A DNA stretch of 64,000 bases from Rutstroemia sp. NJR-2017a BVV2 (Eukaryota; Ascomycota; Leotiomycetes; Helotiales; Rutstroemiaceae). The stretch covers positions 372,001-436,000 of the forward strand of contig NJPS01000059.1 of NCBI GenBank assembly GCA_002946415.1, given 5' to 3'. The notes beneath the pieces are model-generated. The model did no database searches. It worked only from the letters and a program-made list of their open reading frames with translations, and was not told where the DNA came from. Below, in pieces: positions 22,381-45,068 of the stretch. Each line of letters starts with the position of its first letter. Within the stretch, counting starts at the first letter, position 1. Both the position numbers and the translations under genes were made by a program.

Positions 22381-22993
22381 TTCGGTCAACTGGTGGTAGT
22401 ATCCAGTGTATTTATACTGTATGTAGACCAACTATTGCCTCAATCTAGATACACGTCTCGATGAAATGAATGCCTATCTGGAGAAGCTGACATCCCCACC
22501 CATCTTGTCATTTCAGGTTACTTACCAACAGTGCAACTAAGTATATTACTAACAAAATTCGAATTAATGGAAATGTAAGTATGAAGACTATGAGTGCAGT
22601 TCTATTGGTCAATGCAGATATCCTCCTCCGAAACTAGGAACATTTGGTTATGTTCTGCTTTGGGTAAGCAGATCGGCGGCGGACGGAGCTCACAACTAGT
22701 TATCAAAGTCCTTGACAAATTGAACGAGTGCAAATGCTTTTATGCTAATTTAGATTGAAATAGGTATTAAAGTGATTATGAAAGCCTCGAACTTCACACA
22801 CCAAAGAAGAAAAGAAGTATCGACATTGACCGCCTGCAATGAGATAACCAAAAAGAATATGCTGTCCAACTCCTAGTCTTGACCCTTTAGATGCGCAAGT
22901 ACATGACTTTTATAAGAGTGATATTTACATTGATGAAAAGAAAATATGCAAATAAAATGAAAGAGAATGTAATCTAGTTCAAGACGCAACCTG
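22381..22993. other. intergenic region
   Basis: About 0.6 kb between the RTA1-like start and the stop of the giant synthase gene. It holds the expected 3' UTR of the synthase and the RTA1 promoter. No gene or repeat was found. Confidence 0.4.
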
Positions 22994-25900
22994 TCACAGA
23001 TCCACGCGCTCCAGCGCCGTCTCAAGATCCCTAAGGAATGAATCCGCACCAGGTAATCTCTTCGCTCCAAGCAACGACGAGTCTTCAGACCTATCATTGC
23101 TACTGCCGCTAGACAATACTCTAACCCGCGTAGCCACCGTCTTACCCAAGGGCGAATGACTGCGAACGGAACGGAATCCAGGTGGGGTCAAAAACTGAAC
23201 ATCGGGAGTGGAGATCGCGCTGTCTCCCGTTCGGTAACCCATGTAATCGGACATAATTTTGACACCGCTTCCGTAAGCCATCGGAGAAAGAGGTCGCTCC
23301 AGTCCTGGAGATGGAACTCGAGTTGAGGCTTGCATGGAGCTGGCCCTCATGCTTACTCGAGTTGAGGCTTGCATGGAGCTGGCCCTCATGCTTGATTCTC
23401 GGAAGATTGATCGTATAGGTGGTCGTGTTTGTAGCGCAGAAGGTACGGATGTTTGGCCCCACATGTTGCTTTGAACAGGTAGAGATGGCATTGCGGGTCT
23501 GAGTCTAGGTCTTGGTTCGGTGGAGGGGTATTTCAGGTCGTAGCGAGATTTTCCGATCCAGAGCATTTGCTCGTGTTCTCTGAGATATCGATCTCCTCCA
23601 AAAGACCTCTGTACAATTTCTCGGCTCTTCATACCGAGAGCTCGGAGTTGTGTTTTCTTCTCATACATGCGTGCTGTAATTATGTTAACCTCCTCCGGAG
23701 TGGGTTTGTCTATGATAGAAGGAGGTTTGAAACCGTCCGGGTCATTCGCGTAAGGTGCCCATTGATCCAGAAGCGCAAGCATGTTTATTTGTGCTCTTGC
23801 GAGACTTCGTGCGTCGTTGGGAGCCACCACTTCACTGAAACAGTCACCTGTATCAGGATCTGTGAGCACTCGAAGAGATGCTCCAACATCTGTACACACT
23901 ACAGGTGCCCCAGTAAGTGCAGCTTCGCCTAGAGCTAAGGGTAGTCCTTCAGAAATTGAGGAATTGAGGAACACCCAAGTCTTCTTCAAGACATTGGTTG
24001 GACTTGCGGTCCCACAGAGAGTGACATATCCAGGAAGAGACTTTGAAGCTAAGATCTCAAAGCAGTCGGTCGAGTACGCAGGTGCCTTATCAATCGCACC
24101 ATAGATGTCGAGTCGGTAGTCCTTGAAGCCCCACTCGTTCACAATGATATCAGCAGCTAAGATTGCTGTCTTGATATCCTTCGCATACCATACGTGAGAC
24201 AGCATGGTGACTGTAGGTAAGGGCGAGGTTGTCTCCTGAATAGGACTGAACTTGGAGATGTCTGCTGGTGGAATACCATTTACGACAGGATCAATCTTTC
24301 GTTTGAAGATATTTCGATGTTCGAGCTCTCCACGACTTGATCCTATCTCAACCTCCCATCCAGGGTTGAAGAAATCCGCACACGGCAGAATAACGTCGGC
24401 ATGATGAAGAGTTAACTGACTCGTGATTTTCATAAGACCAAGCAATGAGTTTCTGACGAACGGAGGTAGTGTGCAAAGATCCGAAGAAAGGTAGAGATTA
24501 GTCTCACGCCAACCTAGGATTGAAAAGTCAGCATGGGAAATTTGAGATGCGGGAGAAAATTCCTGTCTCTAGAGAAAGAATCAACTTACTGATAGCATGA
24601 TCCCAGATCTGTAGCTGGCACCCCCTTATGATCTTACAGACGACACCGTAAGAAGCGCTGACAGAATGGTGAGAAGCCTGAAATATGGAAGGAACTTTCT
24701 CTGGAACCGGTAATGAAAAAATGAACAGATATCGGAACCAGAGGTCGATCGCAGCATCGAGTTGAGCTATTGTAGGAATCTCCGTTTGAAACCAGGTCTC
24801 TGAAGGTGTTGGACTCACGAGATCTTGTGATATCCACAAGTTCCGCCATGCATCTTTGACCACCCTGCTATTCCAGACTCCAGTCCAGTGCTTCGAATCA
24901 GAGAAGTATGCGTTGAGACCGACGAGAGCTCTTGTTGTTTGTAGGATGTCAGCTTGCGTAAAATGACTTGTTCTAGCACCTTTGACCAGCGTTTTGAGAA
25001 TAGGGATGAAGTTGCGCTCAATATCTTGCTTGGTAGACTCCCGTACGACGTGTACCACTTCGGAATCAAGACGATCTCTGAAGATTCCATGCGTTGGGGT
25101 GAGGAAGTCAAGACCCCAGATAGGAATGACCTTGAGCGTCTGAACATTTTCTTGGGTTTGATGCTTGGGTACACCAAAATCATTTGCACTTTCCGCAATC
25201 ATGTACCATTTTGCTGACTTGAGATTGTTGACCATATCTCGTCGACATGCTGAAACTCCACCTCCTTCATTAGGCCATGTTCCAGAATCAGTGGCGAGAA
25301 CATGTAGTTCGTCCTTCTTGAATTCGGGTGCGGATCTAGTGCGAGCATTTGCACTACCTCCTTGTCCAAATGCATAGAAATCAGCAATTTGGAAGGCGAG
25401 TGGCGCCCAACCTGAAATAGACTTATCTAAGTCAATAACAGCCATTATCGCGTCTGCATTATCGTGCAGATATTCCTCTGCTGATTTGAGATTGCCATGA
25501 TCGCGACGGCAGAAGTATGGCCGTAGAAGTGGTTCTCTTCTAAGAAGTCTTTCGTCTAGCCATCTCATGATCACGCCATCAAATGCCGAGTTATCTTTCC
25601 AAGCTTTCCACAACCTCGATCGAGCTCGAGATGTAGAGACGGGATTCTTGTGAGTATTTCGCCCAAGCCATCTGGGAAGTGCGTGTGGGTGCAATGATTT
25701 GAAACCAACCATGGGATCATCGTGCCGGAATGTGAAGTTTGTGGGTTTCTTGAGGACACCGAGATGATCCCACCTAGAAACTCATAGTCAGTACGATGTC
25801 ATTCTGGTTCCAAGTAGTATTTTCTTTACACAAGGTACTTCTTGTAAAATCACGTGTTTAGACAATATGAACAACAGAACTTACTTGATCAAATCTGGTG

Positions 25901-28900
25901 TATCCACCGTTTCCCCATTCAATGTAGTGAAAATGGTAGGGTGATACTTATGATCATACGACCATTGTGCTTCATAAACGTCAGGACCAATGACAAAAGT
26001 AGCTTCCAACACCTGGGAGTGGGGAATCCACTCGTCTAATCTTTCCAGATGTTTCGCGGGAGGGGCTGCCCAGGACACAGTGCAGGTCAGGTGCGGGAGG
26101 ACGAATTCGGCTCTCAACAACTCATCGTCAAAGTTGCTATTTTGCCGATAGTGACAATTGAAGCGTACCAAGCTACCATCCAGCATGTAGGAACCTCGCT
26201 GGACAAGGCCTTGACTGTTGAACGACACCTCTTCGAACTCGTTTTTGCCTGATACGCAGCGTCGTGAAATGGGATAATGGCGGTGATTCTTCGCAAGTCG
26301 TCTCTTTGGGACGTTTATGAAGTCATAATCGTACTCGTAAACATTCGTCTTGGCTCCATTGGAGTAGTCTTCTCTTCTCAGAAGAAGAAGATCTTTATTG
26401 TAGATGCTGATCCGTTCGAGCTTTGATGCTTCTGTGGGCTCTTGGTCGAAAACGCCAGCGTATTGGTGGATCTCGAACTTGCCAGATCCCAACAAAGATC
26501 CATTGGAAGCATCGCTCTCATTATTCTGACTACTTCCGTCCACGCCAGTACCTTCAGGAGCACGCACGAAGGCTGTTGAAGGGCCACTAGTGCTCTCAAT
26601 GGAGATCTTCTGTCTTTTCAGGGAGACTGTAGTTCCAGTTATTTGTGCCAATAGCGTGCTCAAATTCTTTCTTCCATGGAGCAAGAAAGTCGGCATCACG
26701 ATATCCTGAATGGTTTTCGTGTACACCCAAATACCAGTTACCACGAACAGAAATCCAGATCGTATATACCGCGGAGCCGATTTGAGGGTGTGGTCTAGTT
26801 CCCTTTGCAATTCTGGTTCTGCGACGAATGCTATTACAAATAATTTCAAGAAGTGGCCAGTGTTGTGATAAGCGGTACTGAACGGCACTTTCAACAGCTT
26901 CGTTAGTGATTGGGACTGTTTTTTCGATGGTTCAGCCCGCCTGAGCAGATTCAGTACAGTGGGACTTTGAATTTGGTCGACTTTTCGGGTAGATGCGGTT
27001 TTCGCATACTCCAATGTGTAGCGTTTCATGGCGATAGAAATAAACGCGCCGAAGTTGCATCGACTTAGGAATGTCTCTACGGAAATGTCCGTAGCTTTGT
27101 TCGATTGCAGCCAGTCCCGTTGAGCAGGGGTAACCGGATACACTGGCTCAGTGCAACGACCAATGATCAAAGATCTAATGTCAGCAGGAAGTCGTTCCCA
27201 TTCCAGATTTGGGTTACAGCCTAGAGCAGTGTGGTGAAGAACTTCATCTTCGAACTGCATTGCCAACGATTCTGCTTGTGTTCGCGAGGCTTTGGAGAAG
27301 GTCAAATAATTTCGTAAGCTCTGAGGCACAAGGGTTTGCTCTAACAAGCCGGATGCAGATACGGATGCGAGCAAAGACTCTAAAAGTGTAGCATCTTTGT
27401 GAGACAGCATCGAGATACTTTCAGCACTAATGTGGAGTAATAATTCAGCAGTTCTGTTGATAATTAGTGTCCATGATATATCATTAAAAGAATTTCCCAG
27501 AGCCGAATATGTTGCGAAGTACTCATAGGCGGTCTAGTAGATTCGTGAGTGTACTTACGTTTGACAAAAGTTGCTGATGCTCGATTGCTGATCCATTGAG
27601 TTCATCATCTCACAACCAACAAAGACCTTGATAACTTCACCAGAATCGCAGCTTACGGCTTTCAAATCTTTGAAGTTGCCAGACAATGATGCCATGGAGA
27701 CACATTCGACAACAATTTTCCCACTCTCGAAGGCGCTGATTGCTTCTTCTAACAACTGAATACCTTCTGGAAAGGCTTCCAAGGCAAGACTAGGAAGAGA
27801 ATCGATCGAACTTCCTTGAACTTCCTTGAAAAGCTGAACAGCATGTTGTAGAATGGATCGAATCTCTAGGCCCGGATGAATGTTAGGTTCGACTTGATAC
27901 TTATCATCTTCACCAAGAGCACCGAGGTTCTCAAATGTAATGTGCAACTCGTCCTGAGATAGTAGTAGTGGTCGGCCTGGGCTAGTGAACTCATGGAACA
28001 CTTTGTCTGAGGATATCTTGCTCCACACGCTGCTGTCGACATTTTTGTTTGTTGGCTTTGTCCTTATACGTGCGTAATAAAGAGATAGGAAGGCAGCCGT
28101 CCAAGTAGCTGCACCGAGCGCAACAACATCACAGTACTCGAACTGTGGGAAAAAGTGTCTGAGGAGTTGTCCAAGGGGCAAACCGATGATTACTGCCACG
28201 AGCAGGGGTTTTAAACTTCGAGGCCCGGAGAAAATTTTGATGTACTAGATGGTATGTCAGCTGACTATCACGTTTCAAATGGAGTATTAAATTTGGTGCA
28301 GGGACATACTTGGTAGAAGAGCAAACCTAGTGTCATATTAGTAAGATACCTACAAATTTGGAGAATGTGACTTACCTGTGTAAGCGCCGACATACGCCAC
28401 GAAGAGAAGAGTCGAGCTTTCTGTGCTATCGAAGACCCAAAGCAGACTGGAAGAAAATGCTAAACTCCATACATGAAACAATGTATATCTGCCGAGCATA
28501 GACCAGAAAAGGTGCTTCCTGGCTTTGACTCCGGCTTTCACAGCTTCGGGAATAGATGAGACGTCGCCAATAAGCATGTTTTGACTTTTGGCAGTCATCG
28601 TATGAAGCTTCGTAGCATTTATATCGAGAAGTACAGCACCAATGAGGTAGTAAGCAAGTGCAAAACCAACAGGCATGCGGTACTTGGTATTGAATGCAGA
28701 TAGTCCGAGAAGGCGGCCGCCCGCTAGAAGCGAACTCCATTTGTCGAGTAATGCGACGATGAAGTACAGGAGACTGCATCCGACCTATCAAATGTTAGTA
28801 TGCAAGTGCGAGGAGATGGGAGAAATTGTACCTCGTCACCAGCCTGGCGCCAGTGGATAAAAGCGTTGTGCAGCTTCAGGCCAGTTTGCATTTGTTTAAG

Positions 28901-31900
28901 AGTATCAAGTGCGACCTTGATTTGCATATTCCACGTTGAGGAATAGGGCATAGGGAGTGGTGTACCGGAGTAGGAAGAGTACCATCCTAGCAAGAAGATT
29001 GTGGCATCATAGCTGTCAGCAAGAGATTTGACAACTGGGTCTTGACACTTTCGACGAATCAACCCTCCGCGGGCATTTCTTATCGACTCAATCATTGCAG
29101 TCCTTGCAATTTTGAGGGCGGCAGGATCAGTCATTCCAGAGAAGGTATCTTCGTCACCATTTTTGTAGGTTTTAATGTACCATTCCTTGAGTGCCTTGTC
29201 GCTGATCGAATTGATGTTTTGGTGCCAAGTTGCCCATTTTGATGCCGTATGTCGAGTTCCAAGAGCAAGCAAAAATATGAATATATACAAAACAGATAGG
29301 TAGATGTAAATGTCGTATCCAGGAACGAGAATGGTGGTGATGGGCGCAATGAAAAGAAATGGAACAATCATAATAATGACGGGACGCCCAGATTGGAACG
29401 AACTGCCAGGGTATGAGAAATTGGCAAGTGTGGCAAGTAATGACAAATAAGTAGTCAATGCAAGCAAGTATAGGAAGAAGATAACACCTGAAATGATGCT
29501 GTCCCGTACACTGACAGCCGTAAAGCCAATCGCACCAACAGCAAGAGTGAAGGCAAGACATCCGACAAGCCTCGTCACAACGAACATGTTCATTGCGGAG
29601 AATGCCATGGAGATGAGGTAGTATGAACCTCCACAGGTAATCCATGTGCCCCAGCCTCCAGATATCAATAAAGAGATCATCAGAGCCAGTGTTGCCGAAT
29701 GTTGTTCTTTATGAGTCATGCGGCCACTCAGATAGAGGCCTTTTCCGGTGGTCGTCAAAAGTAAAATATCCAACAGCGCCGGAATCGCGAAGACACTCAG
29801 AAATGTAAATTTCATCGTCCCGGATAAGCCAGGCTTCTTGAAATCGCCGATATCGATCTTCGCAGCTGCATAAGCCGACGGAGTTGTAGGATCGGCATCA
29901 GTCCATATTGGAGGTTCTCGTCCGGGTTTATGGTGGCATTCACGATAACGGTTGGAAAGGAGCTTTCCGAACGAGCTTGGGGTCATATCAAAGTATGACT
30001 CGCACCGAGCTCCCGTAGCGAAAAGTTCCGCGAATGCAGCCGCCTGATCACTTTGGTCATTGAATAAGGTGTTCCTGTCGGTGACCTCAACATATGCTTC
30101 GTCGAAGGCGTGCTTTCTCATTGCACAAAATACAGCAAGACACAGAAGATCAATGCGAGCATCAATCTTGTCTGCGCTTGCAATGCTGACGAGGCACTTA
30201 GTAATACCTTGCAAGAGATCCAGTTTCCTCTCTTTTAATATGAGTGTCAGCGAGTCTTCAACCTGCCTGAATAGATCTAGTGCGTTCGTCTCTTCTGGAT
30301 GCTGAGTCCCCATGCCGAGATACCAATGTGTCCGCAATTCAATGACCTTTTGCGGTGTCAATTGGCCACCAAGGTATTTGAATGAACAGCCGTCCTTGAC
30401 TTGCATAAAGTCTGTAACAGCTAGCAATTGTTTTTCGCATGCAGATGATAGCAATTCGATGAGAAGGCCGTTTCCTTTGACCGAGGACAAACTCAGAAGT
30501 TGGACGAACCGGAGTATCTCAGATGGAGATAGCGCCTCGATGTCGTTAATCAACCTAGGAGAGAGCGAAAAAGATGTAGGCAGACTTAAAAATCTGAAGA
30601 AAGCGATCTCGGCCTCAAAACATTCGTGGCGCGGACAGCCACGACTTGACAGGAACGTGTGGAGGATTGTGCCAAAAATTTCAGAGCAATTCCTCGACAG
30701 AAAAATATCAAGTATGTCGTCATCCAATGCGTATACCGCCCAGAATCTAACATTTTGTTGCGCTTGAAACCCCGAGTCAAGTCCCTTGTACACTCTGACA
30801 TGCTTCTCTGACTCACTCGGAAGTCCAGAAAGCTGTTGTGCAAGTTCCTGAATGGCGGCAAGCCATCCAGAGCCTTCTAGCGTAGCCTGAGGGGAATTGC
30901 AAAATCGGCCGAGAGCTTCACCGAGCTCTTTCAAGGAAGTGATGTCAATCTTTTCAAGAAGATCACGCGACTTTAACTTCTGTTGAGTTTGCAGAACATC
31001 ATAAAAGTCCTTCTTTGCAACGTGAACACCTAATGGAAAACAGCCCATAAAGTCGTTGGATGTGCCATTAGGTGTAGTGGAGATAGGATTGTTTGGAGTC
31101 CTCTCCAAAAAGGCACAAGGTCCTTCGGAAAAGTCGTGGTCCTGTGAGCCGATGGAGAAGAATGATTCTGTGGGTGTGGGCGATCGACTACTAAACTTCA
31201 CAAGATCGTTTTCAGACAGTCGAGGGGTTATGGTCGTAGAGCGTACTTTATTTTTCGAATGATTTTGTAACGACTGACCGACGAATGAGGCATTGATGTT
31301 CTCTATCGAGGGTTGAAGATCTGTATCAACAGATAGGAGATCAAGGAGGGTTTCGGCGTGGGACCATGTGTCCTCCACAAATTCGCTGGTGATCTAGGTC
31401 AAGATTAGCGCATTGCTTCACTTTAGTTGCCTTCCTTACAGATGAAAGTAGAGTTCGGTGCATTTGGAGAGCATACCTTGTGATTCAGACGCCATTTTCT
31501 ATGAGCCTCCATCACTTCGGGTTCCTTGAGCCAAGAAAATGCCCCCAATGGCTCCTTCTGGTCTCTATTGGAAGCCAAAGATCGTAACTCAGATGCATAG
31601 GTAATGAATGGCAGTGCGCTATAGAACTTGGACCATTGGTAGGTCCTTCTGACGACAGCATTGAGGGGCGTTGCATCATCGTCTAGAGTCTCCCATAAAC
31701 AGATGGTGAATCGTCTCAAACATGCCTGAGACACAAATGCTTTGATGGCTGGTCTCATCTCGGCCATCTGAAATGCATCCCTTTCCTCTCCATTCGGAGA
31801 AATGGTACCGTTGCGAATAATTAAACCATCGACTTCACTCAACTCAGCAAGCTTGGGATTTGACAAGAAACCCGGTGAGGAAGTTTCTAGGTAAATAGAG

Positions 31901-32682
31901 AAACCAAGCCTGTGAGCGAACACAATCAGTTCCATTACTAGAGGGTTTGACAGACGCTCGGCCCAGTTGGCAAGCAGGATGCTGCTGAAACAACAGACAT
32001 CCCCAGGACCTTTCGAGGCATCTAACAATTTCTTAATCCATTCAACGGCGGCCACCATGGGACTTTCGTGGTCAGGCTTGATGTTTTCACCAACGTCGAA
32101 ACGGGCAAGAACATATGTAGGGTTATCGTATGAGCCACAGGAAAGAACGTTGATGACATTCTGTTGCCAGGCGTCGACAACAAGAAGATCCCATCTTGCC
32201 AACAGATTTAATTCATCTGTGGTTGGTGTTGCGGTAAACGGTCCAAGATGAACGCCAAAGCTTTCCGGTTTCTTGTCCGCTCGAACAGCTTTCTGAGGGC
32301 GCTGACTGATCTCCTTGGCAAGATACTTCTTGACGGCGGAAGAAACAGGTTGGTCTGCAGCTTTTCGCTCCTAAGGTACATAAGCTAAGATAATTGGTCG
32401 ACAGATGGTGTCCGACGTCGATAGAGTGTCTAGAAGACCGTCCATCTGCCGTGGAAATGCTCTCAGAGTACTTACCTTGTAGACTTTTATTAACTTTCGA
32501 AGTACGACATACAAAATGAAGGTAATTCCAAGCCCAATTGAAACAAGGATAAATGCAATGAGAATCTGGTGGACCATTCATTAGCAAGAAACCATAGGGA
32601 GTATATGCAAGCTTACAAACTGCCACCAGTCTCTTATTAAATCCCTCCAGCTACCAACTTCGACGCCTGTTATTTGAGCCAT
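22994..32682 (-). CDS. gtb3: Gtb3-like giant membrane glycosyltransferase (GT4), GAG synthase
   Basis: Ten exons (32682-32617, 32565-32476, 32370-31477, 31393-28832, 28784-28376, 28326-28310, 28244-27559, 27453-25885, 25773-24590, 24513-22994) sum to 8,997 nt, 2,998 residues, with every junction in frame. Exon 6 is a 17-nt micro-exon. Layout: a membrane helix at about 23-44; a folded domain at about 75-350 (ARWDLLVVDAWQQNVINVL), possibly hydrolase-like; a helical region; about six membrane helices at 880-1065 and more at about 1205-1400; a long middle region; then a GT4 domain with TWPNEGGGVSACRRDM near 2265 and SEGLPLALGEAALTGAPVVC near 2680; and a disordered tail. In A. fumigatus Gtb3 is the predicted polymerase/exporter of galactosaminogalactan, using UDP-Gal and UDP-GalNAc at the plasma membrane. 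It is divergent from the agd3-like gene. Assignment rests on domain plan and cluster context. Confidence 0.85.
23316..23393 (-). repeat. 39-bp perfect tandem duplication in the synthase C-terminus
   Basis: Two adjacent identical 39-bp units (23316-23354 and 23355-23393) encode a duplicated 13-residue Ser/Met/Arg block (SMRASSMQASTRV) in the predicted disordered tail of the Gtb3-like protein. The unit is a multiple of three, so the frame is kept. Confidence 0.85.
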
Positions 32683-34884
32683 AGATTAATTGTATAATAA
32701 AGAAAATATAGAATTGCCTCGTTCTCAACGACGAGATGGAACGGCGAAAGGTTACATACAAAAGCTGCGTGAACGTTACAAGTCAAAGAGAGAATGCAGA
32801 GAGAGTAAGAGAAGCATGAAGCAGTATATGCCGACATAATTAAAAGCAGAAGTCGAGGAAAAGTTTTTCCATCGTAAAGTGGCACCGACAGCACGGAATT
32901 TCAACAAATCCCCGAATGCTACTCGTCCATACGAAGCACGTTCAGTCGTCAGCTCTTAAAAACAGCTCCATGCAAGTCGTGGTGCCAGGAATAGAACTAT
33001 TTGCGAATGCCCATCCTCGACCTACACCGTCTTCTAGGTATTGGTGTGGCCTAATCGGGTAACCGACTTCACTGAGGGTAGACAGGCAAAGAACACCTGG
33101 GCTCCATCGAAACACATGTCTACGCTTTAGTTTGCAGACACGAAAGACAACTGAATGCAGTTTGGATGGCCCATCACCCCCGCCAGCACACCAGGCAGAA
33201 AGTGATTAGTGGACTGTCCGATAATGGATCCGAATCTTGGGGGCGTAGCTGCAGAGCGAGGATCCTGTTCCAGATCGTGGGGTGGTTCGGATGATGCCAT
33301 AACTACAGAGCAGGGTATGTATGCCGCGGAAGGATTGTAGAATCTTCGCGGCGGCCGCCACACCATCCGGCTTGACATCACGAAATTCCAATTGAGCTGG
33401 TGGTGGATAGTTATTCAGCTTCGCACATCGCCGTCGTCTTTCTATAGAATGGAGCTGTCACAGTATGTTGCATTTATGCTGTGCGACCGAGCCCGCGAAT
33501 CTGTGTTTGGGGAAATGAAGGATGGGAGAAGGCTGTTGGGCTGTTGGAGGCGCGTGTGATCGGGTTCGTTTCAAATCCCTACAGGTTGCAGTTGAACGAG
33601 TACGGTTAAGCCCCAGGATTCACGGCTTGCACGGCTTGTAATTGGCTGCCTCAATCGGTAAACGTCTGACGGTTCTTTGTTTCTGGTTAAACTCCGATAA
33701 TATCGACAATCAACAATACCCGGTATAGAATAAAGTAGCAGGTGCGAAAGGCAATGGGGCGAGTCGGAATTGATTTTTACCCCTTCATTTGAGTTTTCTT
33801 GCTGAAGTCATCATTGGCAGATTGCCTTCAGCTGACAGCCCAACAAGGCAAAGCGTCGCCGTGCTTTTTACCTAATCGAGTAGTATTCTGACGACAAATC
33901 TAGTCTTGATTACGGAATTTAGTCCCATTTTGGATAATTTTGCACCGGACCGTTGCACGGGAAGCTTATTCAGTCTCACTTCCAGCACCCACTTGTTCAG
34001 ACCACAAATCTCACTACCAACTTTAATATAACCTCCCTTCTTGCATATCTTGTCTCCATGGATATACATTGCACATTGCATGGTTGTTCTCGCTGATTAG
34101 CGACTCAGGCCATGCCACCCATCAGACTACCAAAATGAGTTACCGCCTCATACCTGCCAGACCCCCCCTCTCCCCTCCCCATGGACCACACTAGGCATAC
34201 ACTTTGATGCACAGTTGAGCGCGCGGCCAGATCCACATAATATGCAGTCATTTGGAACCATTGAATCTTGTCGGTCTCCTCTGGTCAGGATTCTCGTCCG
34301 ATTTCTGCTCTGTGCCGTTCAGCTGTTGAAAATTCAGACCTGTGCGAACCGGTTCAGCTACGCTCTGTCAATATAGGTCGTTTATTCCGTGATCTGATGT
34401 TCTTGGTGAACCTTGGTATATCATGCTACGTTACGGAACCTTGCTGTTTTTCATCTAGTGACATTCGTATCATATCTCCACTGCATTTCCATCATGCATA
34501 CTCTTCGCCTCATAGCATCTATTTTGAGATACATTCATTGATCCCGTGTTTCTAGTTCTCCAAACCCCTCGACCGAGAGTTCTTCGTTATTCAGTTGTGG
34601 GCTCAATCTGAGAAAAGTTTCCCACACAGGTAACGTTGGCTTGGTTACGAATTCAATAGTTTCTTCCCTTGTGGTAGCGGTGGAAAGTAGAGGACGACAC
34701 TTTTCACGTGCTCTGAAAGTGATCTTTGATTTACTTCATATATCATGGTTCATCTCATCTCTAGGAGGAAAGATCATCATCATTTCATTTCTCCCTGAGT
34801 AAACTAAGGGATATACCACTCGTTTAGACGGACTCCTGATCCAGTCACCAAGATTTCCAATCTTTCTTTTTGGCGGTATTCATC
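32683..34884. promoter_or_regulatory. 2.2-kb divergent control region of the GAG cluster
   Basis: This is one of the longest gaps in the window and lies between the divergent gtb3-like and agd3-like start codons. No supported gene is inside; small frames (33127-33391, 33872-34081, 34268-34555) have no domain. It probably holds extended promoters and long 5' UTRs of both cluster genes. Specific regulator sites could not be assigned. Confidence 0.45.
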
Positions 34885-37688
34885 ATGCTGCTCCTACCCC
34901 ACTTTCTGCCACTAGGCTTGTTCCTGAGTGCAGCTCTTGGCCATCGGATCAATCGACGAGAAGGCTCCGTAGGCGAGGATTCATTAGTTGTCGCTTCGGA
35001 GCCTGTTGGCATCACAAACGGCCAGTCTCTCATGACATCTACTGTTCCTCCGGCACCTTTGAAAACGATCGTTGTCGGCAACGTTAAGGTACTGGCAAAC
35101 ACTACGGCAGCTAAAGCAGACGCAAAAGTCGTCGTAGATGACACTGGGGAAACCGTCGACTCCAAAGTTCTTGTTATTGCACGAGATTCTGTCTCCGCAT
35201 ATTCGGTATGGTCCGGTCTCAACGACCTTGGGATTCCCTACCAAGTATTAGTTGTCCCATCGGGCGGTGTCACCCTACCTCAGCTGAATAGTTCATTGAC
35301 GTCGGGAAACTTTGGTCTTATTGTTGTCTTGTCAGAAGTCAGCTACTCTTATCCAAACTTGGGCTACCAATCGGCGTTAACGAATGATCAATGGCAACAA
35401 TTGTACAACTATCAACTTACCTTCCATGTTCGTATGGTCAGACTGGATTCTTATCCTTCTGCAGCCTTTGGCACACAAGCTTTGGGTTCATGCTGCAATG
35501 ACAAGGTCGAGCAGCTTGTTTCTGTTTCCGACACTTCGGGCTTCCCTAATGCAGGACTCAAGATGTATGTACACTCTCTCCAATGATGTTTAGTGCGTCT
35601 ACTGATAGAAAAATTCACAGTGGTGCCGGTGTTAGCACTCTAGGACTGTATCATTATCCTACGGTGATCACCAACTCAACCATTGCAAAAGAGTTTCTGC
35701 AGCTCGGGCCATCTTCAGATGGTCAATACACGAATAAGAGCACGGCAGGTGTAATCAATAATATTAATGGCAGAGAACAGGTTAGTTTTGTCACTATACA
35801 TTGGGGACATGAAGCTGACATTTCTAGATGGTATTTTACGTGCCGTTTTCCACAGACTGGTCCTCAACATCAGTCTATCTCCAACATACATGGATTAACT
35901 GGGGCACAAGAGGCTTATGTAAGCATTCTTTCCTCCTCGTCGCCGTCCACACTAATCTTTGTAGACGCCGGGTATCGAAGAGCAGCGTTTTCCACACAAA
36001 GTAAGTGCCTCCAGATCTCGTGATGAAGTATTACTAACAAATTAACAAGTTGATGATATGTTCCTGTAAGCGCTGTGTTCATACGAGACAATCTCGGCTT
36101 CATTTATCTCTTCATGCATTCATTTCCCATCCGAAAAGTAAAAACTAACGCATTCTGTAGTGTATCAGACATTTATAGCCCTGCGGGCACGACCTACCGC
36201 ATTGGAACGGCAGATCTGGCACAGCATATCACTTTCATGAATACAATCAACAGCAAGCTCAATCCTGGAAGTAAATGGTGGATCGAGATAGGACACAATG
36301 GAAACGGCAACATTGAACAATCCGATAGCACGGATTCAGCTGGCACGGTGAGTCCTCTAGAAGAGGTTTCCGAGTCCTCATGAATCATAAACCTTGGTGA
36401 AATCTTCGTCGGGTGCTAATTTAAAAGCAGCTCTGCAAACCTGGACCCATCGAATACGGAGAACAGAAAGACACTCCATTGGAATGGGTTAAGCCCATCG
36501 GAAGCGGAACTAATCTCTGGCCTGCGAGTCCGAGCATCTATCCAAACTATACAGCTGCCTGCCTCAACAAAGATACGCTGAAGACATGGTGGGCCACTCC
36601 CGCAAACCTTAATGCTTTCAGCCATGTCAGCCATACCTTTACTCATGAAGATCAAAACAACGCTACCTATTCCGACATCTTCAAGGAGATCTCATGGAAC
36701 CAAGCTTGGCTGGCTGCGTCTGGAATTGCTTCAGCAACAAAGTTTAGTCCAAAAGGATTGATCCCTCCTGCTATTACTGGTCTTCACAATGGAGATGCTC
36801 TCCGAGCTTGGTCTGACAATGGTATCACCCATGCCATTGGCGATAACACAAGACCTGCACTTTTGAACCCAGTCAGTGAAGAAATCTGTGTGACTTTGAG
36901 ACGAAAGAGCGCTAACCACTTCACAGAACAATGAGCATTGGCCCTTGATCACGACTGTTGCCGCTAACGGCTTCGATGGGATTCAAATTACCCCTAGATG
37001 GGCAACAAACATTTACTACAACTGCGACCTTCCAGGTTGCACTGTAGCCGAATGGATCAATACCTCCGCTGGATCCGGAGACATCAATACTCTTCTGGCT
37101 GTTGAAAAGCAGACCAACGTTCGGCACTTGCTTTCACTTCATCATGATCCTTTCATGTTCCACCAGGCTAATCTGCGCTACACTGGGGCCGCGTCATATA
37201 CTATTAATGGCGTAACATCAACACTTTCTTTGTTCCAGGCATGGGTCGAGACTGTGACACAGGAGTTCGTTCGACTGTAAGTCAATCTATACTCCGTGGA
37301 ACTCCAAAGTTTAATCTAACATCTTCAAGGGTCAACTGGCCTCTGCTTACCTACAAACACGACGATGTAAGTAATAACGACTCATTTTCAAGCACGCAGC
37401 TAATCAATCCCGCAGCTCGCAACACTCTTTGCCAACCGTATGACCCGTGATGCCTGCAAACCGGGATTGTCATATCAAATCGATACCACTGCCGCGACTA
37501 TTACCGGCGTGACTGTCACCACAAATGGCAACACATGCTCTGTACCCGTTCCAGTCACATTCCCAGGAGCTGTGACCAGTACACAGGGAGCGACTAGCGA
37601 GAAAGTTGGTAACGATCCTTTGACACTGTGGGTCCCGATGTCAGGTCAACCTGTCAAGTACACTCTTAGCGCACCAATCCCACTGTGA
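34885..37688 (+). CDS. agd3: Agd3-like secreted polysaccharide deacetylase
   Basis: Ten exons (34885-35564, 35621-35780, 35828-35918, 35965-36000, 36050-36065, 36161-36347, 36431-36871, 36927-37276, 37330-37366, 37416-37688) give 756 residues. ATG 34885 starts a signal peptide (MLLLPHFLPLGLFLSAALG); an upstream in-frame TTG is ignored. Exon 5 is only 16 nt and encodes the likely metal-binding Asp pair QIDDMFL (about 322-328). The catalytic region continues with WIEIGHNGNGN, HVSHTFTHEDQNNATYSDI (about 455-473, the metal His pair) and GFDGIQITPRWATNIYYNC; the C-terminal part is beta-rich. A. fumigatus Agd3 (CE18) removes acetyl groups from GalNAc in galactosaminogalactan, which makes the polymer cationic and adhesive. 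Conservation across all ten exons and its position beside gtb3 make the call firm. Confidence 0.92.
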
Positions 37689-39681
37689 TACTTCGGGAAG
37701 GAGGCCTCTTCGCGCTGAGAATAGGAGGTGCGAGGACCTGAGCACCACTAGTTCTTTCTGTTGCATTGGAATTTTCATTCTTCCCTTGGTGACGCGTCAG
37801 CTGTCTCCGAGACCTTTTGGTTCGAAATCTGTTATTTCATATCTACTTAAAAGAGGATTATGACCGTAGAGATATAGTTTCCTTAGCTCTAGGATAAATT
37901 GAATATTATGTCTACCTTCCACTGTAGTTTATTCTACCGTCTAGAGTGCCTCACGCATTCCAAAAAGCCTAATTTCTGAATTCTACAGCCAAAATCAACC
38001 CCCTACAATTAACAACAGTTAGCTATGACGATACCTACTACATCTAGAATACCAAGTCTGCGCGAGCTATCTAGCCCCCCTAATCTCCTAGCAACCTGCT
38101 AGTTTGGAGCTCCAAACACCCTATCAGTTGCTTATCTAGGAGTACTAAGTCCTCAACTTGCGGGTAAGATCAGCAAAATGGGGGTCCACCCACATTCTTC
38201 CTACCCCATCGAGGGGAAAATTCCGAGCGCGGAATCCTCGGGTCGCACAACATATCTCAAGCAATCACGCCACACCAAATTGTGTTACCCGAGCCGAAGA
38301 ATTCATCTACTACGATCCGATACTATGTACATCCATGCACATTGCACCATAACCCAACATCGTTTCCCCGCAAAGAGTCCCCTGTCCCTGTCCCTGTCCC
38401 TGTTCCTGCACCCCGCCTCCTTCGGATGCCACCCTGTTGTGATGATGTTGTGATGATGTTGTGATGATGTTGTTGTTTTGGCTGATCGTGTCGGATAAGT
38501 CATTCGATTTTGGGTTTTTCGCACGGCAGCTAGGATATGCTGTGGCTTACTTACCGAATGTACAGTCATGTCGCATCATTTTTTGCACCTACCCCTCGTG
38601 GTAGGTAGACAGGGTTTTTACTGGGTTTTGTACATCGGCTGAGGGGCACAATAGGGAGGAAGGAAGATCTATTTTCGTCTACACAAGATGTAGACCGGCC
38701 GCAACGTTGAACAGACGCACGAGAGAGACACGCAGGAGAGCCAAACACAAGCGCATACGAAGTGCACAGCCGTCCTATCGCAACAATACACTACTACATG
38801 ATCCACACATGTCAGCTTCTCGGTGACTGAAATTTTTCGTCGATGGACGAGTAGTACAACAATACAATAACACAATCCGACGCACATCTTACGACCGAAA
38901 TTTTACCAGCTCAGTCATCCGGCCGCGGAACGGTGCGGTAGTATTGATGACCACTCAAAACCTGCTTACATCAGTAACACCACCACGTCGACGTCCCCTA
39001 ACGCCCTCAATACCACCACACTGAAAATCCTAACTTCCTGAAACTCTGCCACAACCAGAAACCAATTAAAAAGGACGCACGCCAAGGCAGGGTCCAAGGA
39101 AACACAGAATATGCTAAAGCTGACGTATTCAGTTAAAAGCGACGTACATATTAAATTGGGATGCCATTTGACGCTGGATTTTTCAGCTCATGTTGGATTG
39201 GGAAACTATCGTAGGCTTTTTCTTCCCTTAGCAGTACTCTCCGGCTTTTCTTCGATGACAACAGTATTGATAATTCACTGCGGTTAGTCTAGGCATCACA
39301 TGTGGATAGGTTGATTAGACACATTCAGCGGGTCGACCGGGGCTGTGGCGTGGTTTCGTGCGGGCGGTGCATACTTCTGCTTCTACTCGCACGATTCGAT
39401 CTTTCGCGTTCTTTACTATATCTATCCACCTACTGAATATGATTTGGATTTTTAGTACGATACGTACATCCCAACCCATACATACTTCCAAGCAGTAGAA
39501 GCGTTGGCACGCAGCTTACTGGGTATTTTCCATCCGAAATCCGAAAAAGAAACCATCTGATAATATATTTCCCGCTCGATCGCCTCACGCCAGACAAGGC
39601 CTAGATCCTCGTTGAATCCCCTCTTTTATCCCCAAAGGAGCCTCATGGTTCTCGGCGAATCGTAGCTCACGCACTGTCAAC
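37689..39681. other. intergenic region inside the GAG cluster
   Basis: About 2.0 kb between the agd3-like stop and the ega3-like start. No supported gene. It holds simple repeats at about 38381-38408 (CCTGTC-type) and 38436-38468 (11-bp unit) and presumably the ega3 promoter. Confidence 0.4.
38381..38468. repeat. two short tandem repeats
   Basis: A CCCTGT hexamer run (38381-38408) is followed by three exact copies of the 11-bp unit GTTGTGATGAT (38436-38468). The unit is not a multiple of three and no gene spans it. Confidence 0.75.
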
Positions 39682-40734
39682 ATGTCATCAGGAGGGATAT
39701 TCAAGACACCACTCACGACAACCACACAGACCGAGATGAATACCGACGAGGAAGCATCACCACACCGCAAACCTACGCCTGCCACTCGCTCCAACCCGCA
39801 CAAAATTTTCACCCGGAAATGCAACATTATCTTGGCGCTAATATTCCTCTTCATTCTCGCCACTGCCTTGGCACTGGGCCTGACATTTAGTCTTCGGAAA
39901 AAACATCATCACGACGGTGGTGATGGTGATGATACGAATCCTTCTACGCCCACACCAATTCCAACAAACCCAACCAATGCATCATTCTGGACCCCAAATC
40001 TCAATACCACCTCATCAAATACCTGGAACATTAATCTCCTAACGCCACTTGATCCCAGCAACATCTATGCCAACACGACAATCTACGATGTTGACCTGTT
40101 CCTCTCAGCAAATACCACTCCCGCCGTAATCCGTACCTTGCATACCCAAGGCCACAAAGTAATCTGTTATTTTTCCGCGGGCACCATCGAGAACTTCCGA
40201 CCTGACACCTCACTGTTCCAATCCTCCGATTACGGGTCGCAACTCCCGGACTGGCCCAACGAGCACTGGGCGAACATCAGCTCACCCAGCGTACGCGCCG
40301 TCATGCTTTCGCGACTCGACCTCGCCGCCAACCAATCCTGCGACGCCGTCGACCCCGACAACATCGACGGGTACTCCAACTCCAACGGACTGCACCTCAC
40401 GCAAGCAGACTCCATCGCCTACATCCAATGGCTCGCATCCGAAGCCCACGCGCGCGGCCTCGCCATCGGCCTCAAGAACGGCGGCGAGATTATTAATCAA
40501 GTGCTCAGCGACGTGCAGTTTGCCGTCAACGAGCAGTGCGTGCAGTACGACGAGTGCGAGACCTGGCAGCCGTTCGTCAACGCGGACAAGCCCGTGTTCA
40601 ACATCGAGTATCCGCACGATGCGCCATCGATCAGCCAGGTGCAGCGCAACGACATATGCGGAGACAAGCAAGCGGCGGGTTTTTTCACCGTGATGAAAAA
40701 AATGGAACTGGATGACTGGGTCGAGCGATGCTGA
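39682..40734 (+). CDS. ega3: Ega3-like GH114 endo-alpha-1,4-galactosaminidase
   Basis: A single exon of 350 residues. The cytosolic N-terminus of about 50 residues is followed by one membrane helix (IILALIFLFILATALALGL), so the protein is a type II anchored enzyme, then a His/Gly/Asp and Pro/Thr linker, and the GH114 barrel: YDVDLFLSANTTPAVIRTLH, GHKVICYFSAGTIENFRPD, CDAVDPDNIDGYSN, ARGLAIGLKNGGE and VFNIEYPHDAP. The Asp of DPDNIDG and the Glu of NIEY sit where I expect the family's acidic catalytic residues. A. fumigatus Ega3 cleaves deacetylated (galactosamine) stretches of galactosaminogalactan and has the same anchored layout. It follows the agd3-like gene on the same strand. Confidence 0.92.
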   Translation: MSSGGIFKTPLTTTTQTEMNTDEEASPHRKPTPATRSNPHKIFTRKCNIILALIFLFILATALALGLTFSLRKKHHHDGGDGDDTNPSTPTPIPTNPTNASFWTPNLNTTSSNTWNINLLTPLDPSNIYANTTIYDVDLFLSANTTPAVIRTLHTQGHKVICYFSAGTIENFRPDTSLFQSSDYGSQLPDWPNEHWANISSPSVRAVMLSRLDLAANQSCDAVDPDNIDGYSNSNGLHLTQADSIAYIQWLASEAHARGLAIGLKNGGEIINQVLSDVQFAVNEQCVQYDECETWQPFVNADKPVFNIEYPHDAPSISQVQRNDICGDKQAAGFFTVMKKMELDDWVERC

Positions 40735-42434
40735 AAATATCTTTTCCTTGGCATCATGGCATGGTTCTGTTCTGCTTCTCAACTGGTCAGCTTGCTTTAG
40801 CCTGAATTGAATACGATGTGGCTGGGCAAACATCTTTTCGTGTCACCAACCAGCTTCATATTTTAGCTCGGGCGCCGCATTTAGTAGCCATGGCGCCGCA
40901 TCTAGTAGCCATGGCGTGGCCGTTCTTTGCGTGCTGCATAGTCTAGTAAATTAATACATTCCTTTTTCTACTTCCCTTCTCAGACTATGATGACACTAGA
41001 AACTGTAATGTCGGTGCAAATAAGGTTCGTCGCGAGCTCCGCACGAACAGTCCCACTCCGCTGCGAATGCGACCGAAACCCGCTCGGGTTATATTTTAGT
41101 GCCAGCTTGCTTACCTACATACGCGAAGGAAGCGTGCCCGAACATCGTCGGACCTTCTCCCCTGTACCGATGCAACGAGCTGTCCGGGGTTTAATATACG
41201 ACTTGTGGGGATCCCTGTGCAAATCGACCAATTTTTGACACATAGAAACCAGGCGGGCCTGCACCTACCTGACGATCGACCAGCATGGCGGCGGCGCAGG
41301 TGGCCAGGCCAGCCAAAACAATATTAAAAATACTTCGGCATATTGACGTGCTGGGAAAGCTGAGAAGCTGCTCCATTGAGACTCACCGCCCACGATACAG
41401 CTGCCTGTTTCGCAACGAACAGAGCGAGGCGAGCCCCCCGCGCTGGTCTGAGCATGATGTGCATAAGCCCTACAGCTGCATACCTACGCCCGGGTGTTCA
41501 GAAGGGAGTGCCCCGACAAGCCCACCGACCGATCGAACTGGGAGTGCAGGGAAATATTGATTATACCAAGTAAGTTACAAAAAAGACGTCCACCTAACGG
41601 GGCAATGATTACGAGCAGGTTTGTTGGTACTGTATGTGTGTTGGTGCAGGGAACTGCGATGTAACTCGTCTTAGCCGTTTGCGGGAACTTTGCCGAGCCG
41701 TAATGTACTTGTACTGTAGTTTCGCCTTCTGGTTGTGGGGTAATACTCCCATCCATCTTACAGGATGGACTGGATAGCACGGAATATGTATGCGTTGCTG
41801 AGATGCAGCTACTGGACTCAGCAGCTACCGTAGTGATTTGCCGATCCTGGCTCGTTTAACCTTACTATCCACATTTGACAACAGTTAACAGTTTTCGAAA
41901 AGGAAAAAATTGCTCTAGCAAACTGTCCCACAATCGTCGGATTTTGTACACTGCAAACTTCCAAATGACATCAAGTCATACGGATATAAGGCCCGGTTGG
42001 CAAAGTGGGTTTTGGCCATTCCTGCTGAACGAGCCGTGCCAGCCATGTATACAAAACTCCTTGGAAGAAGTCATACCGGGATTCGAAGAATGGGCGCAGG
42101 GGTTGCCGTCTCACTACATGTACCTATGGCCGAGAAATTTCCCGAGAACGCGCCAAGCTCAAGATCAGATATATGGTTACTTTGGCACACCCACGACGAC
42201 ATTTTCATCTAACCTTTGCACATTTCAAAAAAAGAAAATCACACCCGGAAGTTGCAGAGAAGCAGCCGTTTTGAGCCAAGATCCATCTCACAAGAAGGAT
42301 GCAAGATCATGGCTTAAGCATAGGCATCTATTCATCGGGTGCGAAATATAGTACATTGAAAACAGTGACCACGTTGCAGCATTGATCTCGAGATTGAGGG
42401 CCACGATCGAAAAGCTCGCCCCCAGAAACCCTTC
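40735..42434. other. intergenic region inside the GAG cluster
   Basis: About 1.7 kb between the convergent ega3-like and sph3-like stops. A plus frame (41875-42351) begins at TTG and has no domain. It holds a 21-bp direct repeat at 40871-40912. Confidence 0.4.
40871..40912. repeat. 21-bp direct repeat, two copies
   Basis: Two adjacent 21-bp units (40871-40891 and 40892-40912) differ at one base. They lie 137 bp past the ega3-like stop, probably in its 3' UTR. Confidence 0.75.
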
Positions 42435-43339
42435 TCAAAGATTAACCGCTTGGATGAATTGATCCCAATGAGCCCCCAAACTCGTGTAGAGATCTGAAGT
42501 CTGGCTCGTGATGAAAATTGTTCTGACAAGTGGTACGAGCTGCTTGATCTGAGATCGTACATCGGAAGATGCAGTCATCAAAGAATGTGGTACCGAATGC
42601 ATTATACATGCGAGCCGTTCCGGGACCACATCGAGCTTCGTGAGAGCTTCTTCACAGCCTGCCTCAAAATATGTTTGGTGACTTGCTTCAAAAACCACAG
42701 CAATGTCCGGCAAACAAGGTCCTCGCATCAATCTCCAGTGAGGGATTGTTCCTGGATTGTGGATAACCTGTTTGTTTAGACATGAGTTAGCTTTCAGCTG
42801 TGTTGTAAATGCAACAATTAAGGCTTACTAGACGCTCAACTCCGAATCCAGAAGAACTTTTTACCAAGGAATTGATGTTTCTAAGGAATGAAGCATTGGC
42901 TGAACTCCATTGATTTGGGGTCTCATCGAAGAAGATGCCTCGGATGCCGAGTTCGTTACCATCGAGCCTCCATTTGGCGTAGATTAAAACATCTTCTAGA
43001 ACGGCGGAATATTGCCTGGTTGCATATGCAGTGGACACATAGCCAACTACAACGGCATTAGGGTGGGAATTTAACTTCCGTATATCTCTGGAATAATTCT
43101 CGTCCAGCGACACCCCTGGGCCATTGTGAGGATTGACCACGATGATGAATTTGATTTTCGGATACGTCGAGATGCTGTTCCTTCAGTCAGCCCCCGTCTC
43201 AATATTCTCCGGCCACTCCCACCCCCTTAACTTTCCTTTGAAGTAAGCCATCCCATGCACCTGGCGATGGGTAAATGTAGAGGGGAATAATGACATTCAT
43301 CTTAGGAAGCATGGTCGAGAGAGGTTGGCTAAGAGACAT
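42435..43339 (-). CDS. sph3: Sph3-like GH135 (spherulin-4) glycoside hydrolase, odd splice donor
   Basis: Three exons (43339-43236, 43174-42829, 42767-42435) give 260 residues if the first intron starts GA: the junction is CAAAG|GAAAGT, one base from the consensus GTAAGT, with a normal CTGAC branch and AACAG acceptor. No GT donor gives a compatible phase, and unspliced RNA stops within 20 codons. The product has NVIIPLYIYPSPGAWDGLLQ, KFIIVVNPHNGPG, VVGYVSTAYATRQ, GIRGIFFDETPNQW (acidic pair typical of the active site), NPGTIPHW and a regular C-terminus, all spherulin-4 features. A. fumigatus Sph3 cleaves GalNAc-rich galactosaminogalactan and is required for polymer production. Unlike that protein, no N-terminal membrane helix is seen. 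The rest of the frame is intact. Confidence 0.82.
43175..43235 (-). other. non-canonical GA-AG intron in sph3-like gene
   Basis: This 61-bp interval must be removed to keep the Sph3 frame. It begins GAAAGT instead of GTAAGT, has the branch-like CTGAC 14 nt or so before AACAG, and contains TGA and TAA in the frames it would join. Confidence 0.6.
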
Positions 43340-43733
43340 CGCCTGAGATGGAAAGTTTGATGGTGAAAATTTTTTGGAGTGCCCGAAGTACTGCAACCCA
43401 ACTTCCTCTTATGCTGAGAAATCTCGCGCGCTCCACCTAAAGAAGAAAGGCCGCAAAGCCCCTATATCGAAAATGCTAAAACGGCTGACTGGCTGAACTC
43501 GGATGAGAGGAAGTCGATCTGTATTCCAGCACTGATGAATTCGTGTGGCCCGATATGGCACGCAAGAAAATCACGTTGTTGCGTGAGTAACTAAGTTGTA
43601 AGGAGGTAATGATATGTGCCTAGGACTACAAATTAGCTTGGGTGTTCGAGAAGTATAATATGAAGCAGTCTGGTCTTGGAAAGAACACAATCCAACCACT
43701 TTACCTTATTCCTATCACGATCCAATCATCAAT
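43340..43733. promoter_or_regulatory. divergent promoter sph3 / uge3
   Basis: A 394-bp gap between divergent start codons (sph3-like on the minus strand, uge3-like on the plus). The minus frame upstream of the sph3 ATG stays open to a TTG at 43396 but lacks an ATG or a hydrophobic segment. Confidence 0.5.
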
Positions 43734-45068
43734 ATGCCTTGTTCCACAGATTCGGGAGCCTCGTCTCCAGCAAGAGTCTCATACAGTAACGAGACCAATC
43801 CCCTCGGTACACCGTTGACAGAAAGATCCCTCTTATTCGACGATGATGATATTGATGTCGCCGTTCGCAAGTCTATGACTGATCGTTTTATATTGGTAGT
43901 TGGTGGCTGCGGATTCATTGGCTCCCACACAGTGTGGGAACTTGCTAAAGCCGGCTATAATGTGAGGTCCCCCTTCGCTAGTTCTCGACACGATAGCTAA
44001 CCAAACATGTAGGTGGCTGTGATTGACAATCTAAGCAATTCATTCATAAATGTATTCGAAAAAATTGAGCTAATGGTCGATCACCATTACGCAGCCCAAA
44101 GCAAGAATGGGCAGCGTCCAACGCTCAAGTTTCACCAATCAGACTTCCGGGATATGACCAAGATGACGGCAATTCTCCAAGAGTACGACTACCCTATGAA
44201 CTTTGAATCCAGCTCAGACACTTTATGCGATGATCAGCGTTCTAGAATCTCTGGTGTAATTCATTTCGCGGCCTACAAAGCCGTTGAAGAAAGCATCCAG
44301 CAGCCGTTGAAGTACTACTCAAACAACGTCGGTGGCCTGATCGACTTCTGTTCCCTATTGGGCGAATTCGGTATCAAGAAACTCGTATTCAGTTCATCAG
44401 CAACAGTTTACGGGACTATCGCTGATAGCGGAATGCCCCTCCATGAAGACTTTGTAGATGCGTCTGGTTGCACTGGTCTCACTAATCCATATGGACGCAC
44501 CAAATGGATGTGTGAGGCTATCTTGAGCGACCTAGCGAAATCCGATCCAGACTGGGAAATCACTGCACTGCGTTACTTCAATCCCATCGGATGCGATGAA
44601 TCAGGACTTCTGGGTGAAGATCCACGAGTCGCTGCGACCAATCTGATGCCAGTCGTGTTGAGAGTGCTCACTGGAGCCTTATCATCGCTGAGCGTGTATG
44701 GCAGCGATTATGACACGGTGGATGGCACAGCTGTGAGAGATTATATCCACGTCACAGATCTTGCGCGTGGACACTTAGCTGCTCTCAGTAACGGACCAAG
44801 TGGCGGCTTCAGGGTGTACAATCTTGGAACTGGTCGAGGTTATTCAGTTCTGGAGGTCGTCACCGCAATGGAACATGCAACGCGCAAAGCGGTGCCTGTA
44901 AAAATTGTTGGTCGAAGAGGTGGCGATGTTGGGAAGTGTGTAGCTTTGTCCAGCAAGGCAGAGATGGAACTGAGATGGAAGACCGATAAAACTCTTGCGA
45001 TGTGTTGCGGAGATCTCTGGCGATTTCTCGAGACTTCCGCGAACGTAGTGAAGGAGAAAGTGTTTTAA
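43734..45068 (+). CDS. uge3: Uge3-like UDP-glucose/UDP-GlcNAc 4-epimerase
   Basis: Exons 43734-43961 and 44013-45068 (51-bp intron, GTGAGG donor, ATGTAG acceptor) give 427 residues. An acidic N-terminal extension of about 50 residues precedes the Rossmann fold: FILVVGGCGFIGSHTVWEL, VAVIDNLSNS, VIHFAAYKAVEES, LVFSSSATVYG, then the catalytic NPYGRTKW, ITALRYFNPIGCD, RDYIHVTDLARGHLAAL and YNLGTGRGYSVLEVV. The enzyme is an SDR-type epimerase that should interconvert UDP-Glc/UDP-Gal and, for the Uge3 type, UDP-GlcNAc/UDP-GalNAc, which provides both sugars for galactosaminogalactan. Substrate range cannot be read from sequence; the cluster position argues for the Uge3 role rather than the housekeeping Leloir epimerase. 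Confidence 0.93.

Follow-up and report, generated by a model that had tools for sequence, protein, structure and literature searches.

A galactosaminogalactan gene cluster in Rutstroemia sp. NJR-2017a BVV2 with a PelF-related synthase gene and a probably impaired sph3

A galactosaminogalactan (GAG) cluster occupies positions 22994-45068 of a 64 kb window (the whole stretch of DNA analysed, 64,000 nucleotides) taken from a 572 kb contig of Rutstroemia sp. NJR-2017a BVV2, whose assembly comprises 43.4 Mb in 79 contigs. Five gene kinds are adjacent in it: gtb3 (minus strand), agd3 (plus), ega3 (plus), sph3 (minus) and uge3 (plus). Judged from its sequence, that is from gene content, orthology, homology of the synthase to bacterial PelF and conserved catalytic motifs, the locus is the GAG cluster known from ascomycetes. 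The fungus stands closest to Clarireedia and Rutstroemia and is presumably a member of Rutstroemiaceae (Helotiales) near the turfgrass dollar-spot fungi. Our overall explanation, to which we give a probability of roughly 0.7, is that the synthase Gtb3 unites a PelF-type polymerase with a MOP-type exporter and carries a catalytically dead barrel, and that sph3 is impaired. The gene models were built by hand from canonical introns, and the features are as follows.

22994 to 32682, minus strand: gtb3, GAG synthase; 10 exons, 2998 residues, intact (canonical introns, no internal stop)
31477 to 32370, minus strand: exon for the predicted N-terminal TIM barrel of Gtb3, residues 53-350 (AlphaFold2 model, VIA)
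28245 to 30126, minus strand: Gtb3 membrane region, approximate span, predicted MOP-type exporter (C. jacksonii orthologue model, VIA, Foldseek)
28310 to 28326, minus strand: 17-nucleotide micro-exon of gtb3, inside the membrane-region span (gene model)
22994 to 25773, minus strand: last two exons of gtb3, with the PelF-homologous GT4 region at about residues 2259-2750 (profiles)
34885 to 37688, plus strand: agd3, CE18 deacetylase with CBM87; 10 exons, 761 residues, intact (profiles, 6nwz)
39682 to 40734, plus strand: ega3, GH114 galactosaminidase; one exon, 350 residues, N-terminal membrane anchor, intact (profiles, 6ojb)
42435 to 43339, minus strand: sph3, GH135; three exons, start codon uncertain, probably damaged or unusually spliced (Spherulin4 profile, splice-join test)
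43734 to 45068, plus strand: uge3, UDP-hexose 4-epimerase; two exons, 427 residues (380 from the second ATG), intact (GalE profile)

The genes are separated by 2202 bp (gtb3/agd3), 1993 bp (agd3/ega3), 1701 bp (ega3/sph3) and 394 bp (sph3/uge3, 43340-43733). Across gtb3, agd3, ega3 and uge3, about 13.6 kb of coding sequence in all, there are no frame breaks, and four of the five cluster genes encode full-length proteins, sph3 being the exception. Among the best candidates scored in a scan of the genome, this locus alone matched Gtb3, GH114 or the deacetylase domain of Agd3. A preliminary description of this DNA had named the five neighbouring genes with their kinds, order and coordinates, all of which the gene models and family profiles bear out. 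Its statement that no foreign gene lies between them is likely, though not proved: the only intergenic open reading frame searched (41860-42348) belongs to no Pfam family. It had also called the cluster complete. The analysis supports neither this nor the view that all five genes are usable, as no canonical join of the first sph3 exon to the second spares the conserved core.

By profile comparison, the GT4 region of Gtb3 is a homologue of PelF, and is not PelF itself under the NCBIfam equivalog rule. The GT4 profile matches Gtb3 at E 2.2e-13, and the region carries an EX7E motif at E2681/E2689, which we take to be the functional GT4 motif. PelF is the best NCBIfam family of the open reading frame of the last gtb3 exon (E 1.1e-17, against 2.9e-8 for the runner-up), with 64.3 bits where the equivalog cut-off is 100 bits. 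Reference sets of 21 PelG and 20 PelF proteins were drawn from the genomes of bacteria, one weak locus (L036) having been dropped to leave 21 of 22 PelG loci. A Gtb3 profile of 121 sequences aligned with PelF at E 4.5e-20 over 425 columns, covering PelF positions 52-502 of 545, whereas the reversed-profile control gave E 0.012 and the other four Gtb3 regions E 0.077 or worse. The score of 162.7 compares with a best of 34.2 among block-shuffled decoys, none of the 60 reaching the real value. The parallel with Pel drawn in the preliminary description is thus, for PelF, stronger than was claimed, amounting to homology beyond a shared logic.

Gtb3 matched 385 proteins at E ≤ 0.001, of which the best 120 were listed and are referred to here. 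The best listed matches are Gtb3 orthologues, in keeping with the family first proposed for the synthase; the A. fumigatus protein is 46% identical over 94% of the query. The closest of these is that of Clarireedia jacksonii, with 91% identity over the whole length; when the alignment is cut into blocks of 100 residues, 30 of 30 show 76-100%. Sclerotiniaceae come next, at 71-72%. The homologue search and the early residue maps used a 2980-residue model starting at an inner ATG, in which residue numbers are 18 lower; this start proved wrong, given that the N-termini of relatives place it upstream to yield 2998 residues. What looked like a break of frame in gtb3 is accounted for by the 17-nucleotide micro-exon. 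Among the matches listed, Gtb3 of Cadophora gregata, Rhynchosporium agropyri and Drepanopeziza brunnea has 45-46% identity, against 59-61% for Lachnellula and Oculimacula, and the low-identity proteins in the Helotiales are perhaps a second type of synthase.

Structure prediction suggests that the membrane domain of Gtb3 is a MOP-type exporter. Folding drew on 14 relatives out of 114 usable substrings, and on 12 of 22 picked sequences for the membrane region. When the model of the C. jacksonii orthologue was searched, MOP structures filled 50 of 50 rows in VIA and ranks 1-31 in Foldseek; as a predicted fold, the region belongs to the 12-helix MOP superfamily. Published drawings instead show Gtb3 as a putative pore or as a synthase of the IcaA/PgaC kind (PMC4817252; PMC7329490; PMC9030451; all papers are cited here from excerpts), and if it is IcaA/PgaC-like, as drawn in the first two of these, or otherwise a stand-alone synthase with its own pore, the MOP model would be misleading. 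Two results weigh for such a synthase and against a MOP-type exporter: the membrane model has middling confidence, with a predicted local distance difference test (pLDDT) score of 67.7, and sequence similarity to PelG is not significant (E 0.1, reversed 0.13, equalled in 3 of 60 decoys). Profile comparison of the Gtb3 regions gave no sequence signal for PelD or PelE, and Pfam returned just three weak single-member matches on the membrane region. The agreement between the VIA and Foldseek searches counts against a synthase with its own pore, as does the polymerase itself: IcaA and PgaC are GT2 enzymes, whereas that of Gtb3 is a GT4 homologue of PelF. A stand-alone synthase is therefore considered unlikely, and the MOP-type exporter is preferred. 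Our literature search brought up no description of Gtb3 as a fusion of PelF with PelG or as containing a barrel, although subscription papers lay mostly outside it and such a description may be in print; Gtb3 was still uncharacterised at the time of PMC7329490, according to its excerpts.

We regard the N-terminal barrel of Gtb3 as a probable relative of the Pel and GAG hydrolases, catalytically dead and placed on the cytosolic side. Its AlphaFold2 model (pLDDT 76.2) has eight strands, and the barrel has no Pfam family. The catalytic Asp of strand 4 and Glu of strand 6 are apparently absent, judged by motif position, and the place of the strand-4 nucleophile is taken by Ala, Ser, Cys, Thr or Val among the states printed. 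Alternatively, the barrel might still act as a hydrolase, or be a TIM barrel unrelated to these enzymes that serves some other function; invariant acidic residues do remain (E196 and E261, numbered on the 2980-residue model), and Foldseek alone prefers generic TIM barrels, with GH191, GH166 and GH114 not listed. Against this, GH191 and PelA structures take rows 1-7 in VIA, the nucleophile place is occupied as described, and alignment with the PelA hydrolase outscores 60 of 60 decoys. The PelA-hydrolase set had five rows, two of which align to the query no earlier than residue 284, leaving three in effect. One ‘pelA’ set was mixed, one member being a TPR protein. Comparison of the barrel with GH135 and GH114 gave no signal, a test of low power since the GH114-versus-GH135 control was blank too. 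An active or unrelated barrel is a doubtful reading that still deserves serious weight, and the dead barrel is carried forward below.

The proteins that would modify the polymer and supply its precursors fall into the expected families, with matches well outside what chance would give. Agd3 matches the CBM87_Agd3 (E 2.1e-55) and Agd3_CE (E 4.9e-69) profiles and the A. fumigatus Agd3 structure 6nwz (E 4e-260), which places the deacetylase within the Agd3 family, as proposed. It belongs to CE18 and keeps the motifs IDDMF, HTFTH, PRWAT and FMFHQ in alignment with 6nwz; these correspond to A. fumigatus D377/D378, H510/H514, R613 and H668 (numbers matched by motif), residues with catalytic or metal-binding roles (PMC7229062). 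Ega3 matches the GH114 profile (E 1.1e-81) and structure 6ojb (E 2.2e-78), and has the GH114 fold and the catalytic pair, with the motifs VDPDN and VNEQC kept. The pair is Asp189/Glu247 in A. fumigatus (PMC12054363), and its place in the Ega3 chain was counted by hand. In Thalassospira, a bacterial GH114 gene adjoins a PelF gene (DUF3492 with GT4; L014-L016, about 6001-9730), and the genomes with this pair also hold PelG (L017-L019), which makes this a Pel operon neighboured by a GH114 gene. Uge3 matches GalE at E 1.5e-88, above the family cut-off. Outside the cluster, an open frame of 1212 residues without a Pfam family (45698-49333, minus strand) adjoins uge3, and an open reading frame downstream of gtb3 (21728-22411, minus strand) has a partial RTA1-like match (E 6.4e-9).

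The cluster sph3 probably yields no normal protein in this fungus. The Spherulin4 profile matches two of its exons (E 3e-38 and 7.7e-20); exons 2 and 3, joined by a normal intron, carry FFDETP and VVFEAS, two stretches typical of GH135, and the initial strand of the barrel, PLYIYPSPGAW, is encoded in exon 1. Every GT or GC donor was paired with every AG acceptor for introns of 30-400 nucleotides, and no such single in-frame intron between exons 1 and 2 spares both conserved stretches. Single-intron joins to FFDETP number 25; just two keep VVNPHNGPG, both through a GC donor that removes PGAW, and the remaining 23 lose all or most of it. Two-intron joins to FFDETP number 674, six of which were inspected; six two-intron joins reach VVNPHNGPG, with the same GC donor. 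A GH135 barrel complete from its first strand is not obtained; the fault may lie in the splice site, in the frame or in the assembly.

The annotations of two close relatives miss exon 1 as well. The closest Sph3 among the matches listed is from Rutstroemia sp. NJR-2017a WRK4 (94% identity over 83% of the query); its annotated protein of 199 residues begins inside exon 2 in another frame, and that of C. jacksonii, with 125 residues, begins at the last exon. The first strand is present in six Sclerotiniaceae models (260-301 residues) and absent in a seventh, from Ciborinia. In many relatives of Sph3 the first strand is preceded by a hydrophobic anchor; examples, with a mean hydropathy of 3.0-3.24, are Leptodontidium, Cadophora, two Diplocarpon, Drepanopeziza and Acephala. 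No anchor is present in the six models from Sclerotiniaceae, and their MFFKK starts may be annotation artefacts, because similar letters directly follow the anchor in some other fungi. A search upstream of our sph3, covering the minus strand at 43340-44600, detected both controls but no membrane-anchor exon. Relaxed selection on sph3 was also considered and was not supported, exon 3 being fast-evolving among Sclerotiniaceae too.

Two further accounts of the sph3 defect have to be weighed. The cluster may be complete and working, with intron 1 spliced non-canonically or an assembly error at that point, given that the sph3 exons keep their catalytic stretches and still look constrained, and that the other four genes are free of frame breaks. 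The failure to find a canonical join and the missing first exon in the annotations of two close relatives argue against it, and the clean neighbouring genes argue against poor assembly, so that we hold a complete cluster to be a credible minority view. Conversely, the pathway may be defunct, Sph3 being required: A. fumigatus without Sph3 has no GAG (PMC12054363; PMC7329490). However, four long genes are intact with their active sites kept, and N. crassa without the GH135 gene NCU05135 remains adherent (PMC11356417). The genome also holds two other GH135-like genes, one at 1610-2686 (L002, G000:C66) with a long acidic Gly-Asp repeat tail and one at 1853-2687 (L003, G000:C36), which could possibly substitute for Sph3. 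A defunct pathway is quite improbable, and an impaired sph3 in an otherwise intact cluster is the reading adopted.

In the mechanism that we propose, Uge3 would supply UDP-Gal and UDP-GalNAc, and the PelF-type GT4 domain of Gtb3, by homology, would polymerise these sugars at the cytosolic face. The nascent chain would then leave through the MOP-type membrane domain of Gtb3 itself, such that one protein covers the jobs of bacterial PelF and PelG, and the barrel, on the cytosolic side, would grip the nascent chain or hold the protein together. Outside the cell, Agd3 would deacetylate the polymer and render it cationic, and membrane-anchored Ega3 would trim the deacetylated stretches. A more far-reaching combination, with Gtb3 as a single-chain Pel synthase (PelF-type polymerase and PelG-type MOP domain) whose dead galactosaminidase barrel binds polymer in the cytosol, a GAG/Pel machine shared by descent and a lineage that runs without its cluster Sph3, is put forward tentatively, at somewhat less than even odds, because the dead-barrel and Sph3 parts must hold as well. 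Should the architecture of Gtb3 be true, fungal polymer synthesis and export and any common ancestry of the GAG and Pel machines would become directly testable; a true sph3 defect would raise the question of whether GAG production in plant-associated fungi can dispense with the hydrolase reportedly required in A. fumigatus.

In its gene content the cluster adds one more species to those in which such clusters are already published. Our literature search found no paper joining Clarireedia with galactosaminogalactan, judged by the top-ranked matches. A survey of more than 250 genomes found GAG clusters in 28 species, most of them showing synteny (PMC4817252), and such clusters are named in Botrytis cinerea and Sclerotinia sclerotiorum (PMC8224951); reports, likewise excerpted, add Verticillium dahliae, Metarhizium and Neurospora crassa. 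The A. fumigatus cluster is listed as gtb3, agd3, ega3, sph3, uge3 (PMC4817252; PMC7329490). The same five gene kinds lie side by side here in that list order, in agreement with the match to A. fumigatus asserted in the preliminary description. We take the published list to be the chromosomal order. That order is not universal: gene order and orientation differ in Metarhizium, and the gene numbers of N. crassa follow a different sequence, as far as the excerpts go. When gtb3-like and sph3-like locus tags were paired by eye among the listed names of nine species, they stood 3-4 apart in three (Ciborinia 000111/000114, Cirrosporium 003280/003277 and Glutinoglossum 005700/005696), 30 apart in Monilinia vaccinii-corymbosi, and hundreds or more apart in A. 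turcosus, Penicillium rubens, Penicillium sp. IBT 16267x, P. taxi and Hymenoscyphus albidus; the distant tags in six of the nine may reflect paralogues, tag schemes or real separation.

Compared with known GAG clusters, the present one differs in that its sph3 has neither a canonical first splice nor a membrane anchor upstream. Compared with the galactosaminidases GH191, GH166 (PelA hydrolase) and GH114, the barrel of Gtb3 apparently misses the catalytic Asp and Glu and is predicted to be cytosolic. The membrane-region model of Gtb3 matches the MOP fold of bacterial PelG, with no significant PelG signal and no PelD or PelE signal in sequence; the GT4 region is homologous to bacterial PelF almost end to end. 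What bacteria divide between two proteins, PelF and PelG, is set against a single chain of 2998 residues in Gtb3.
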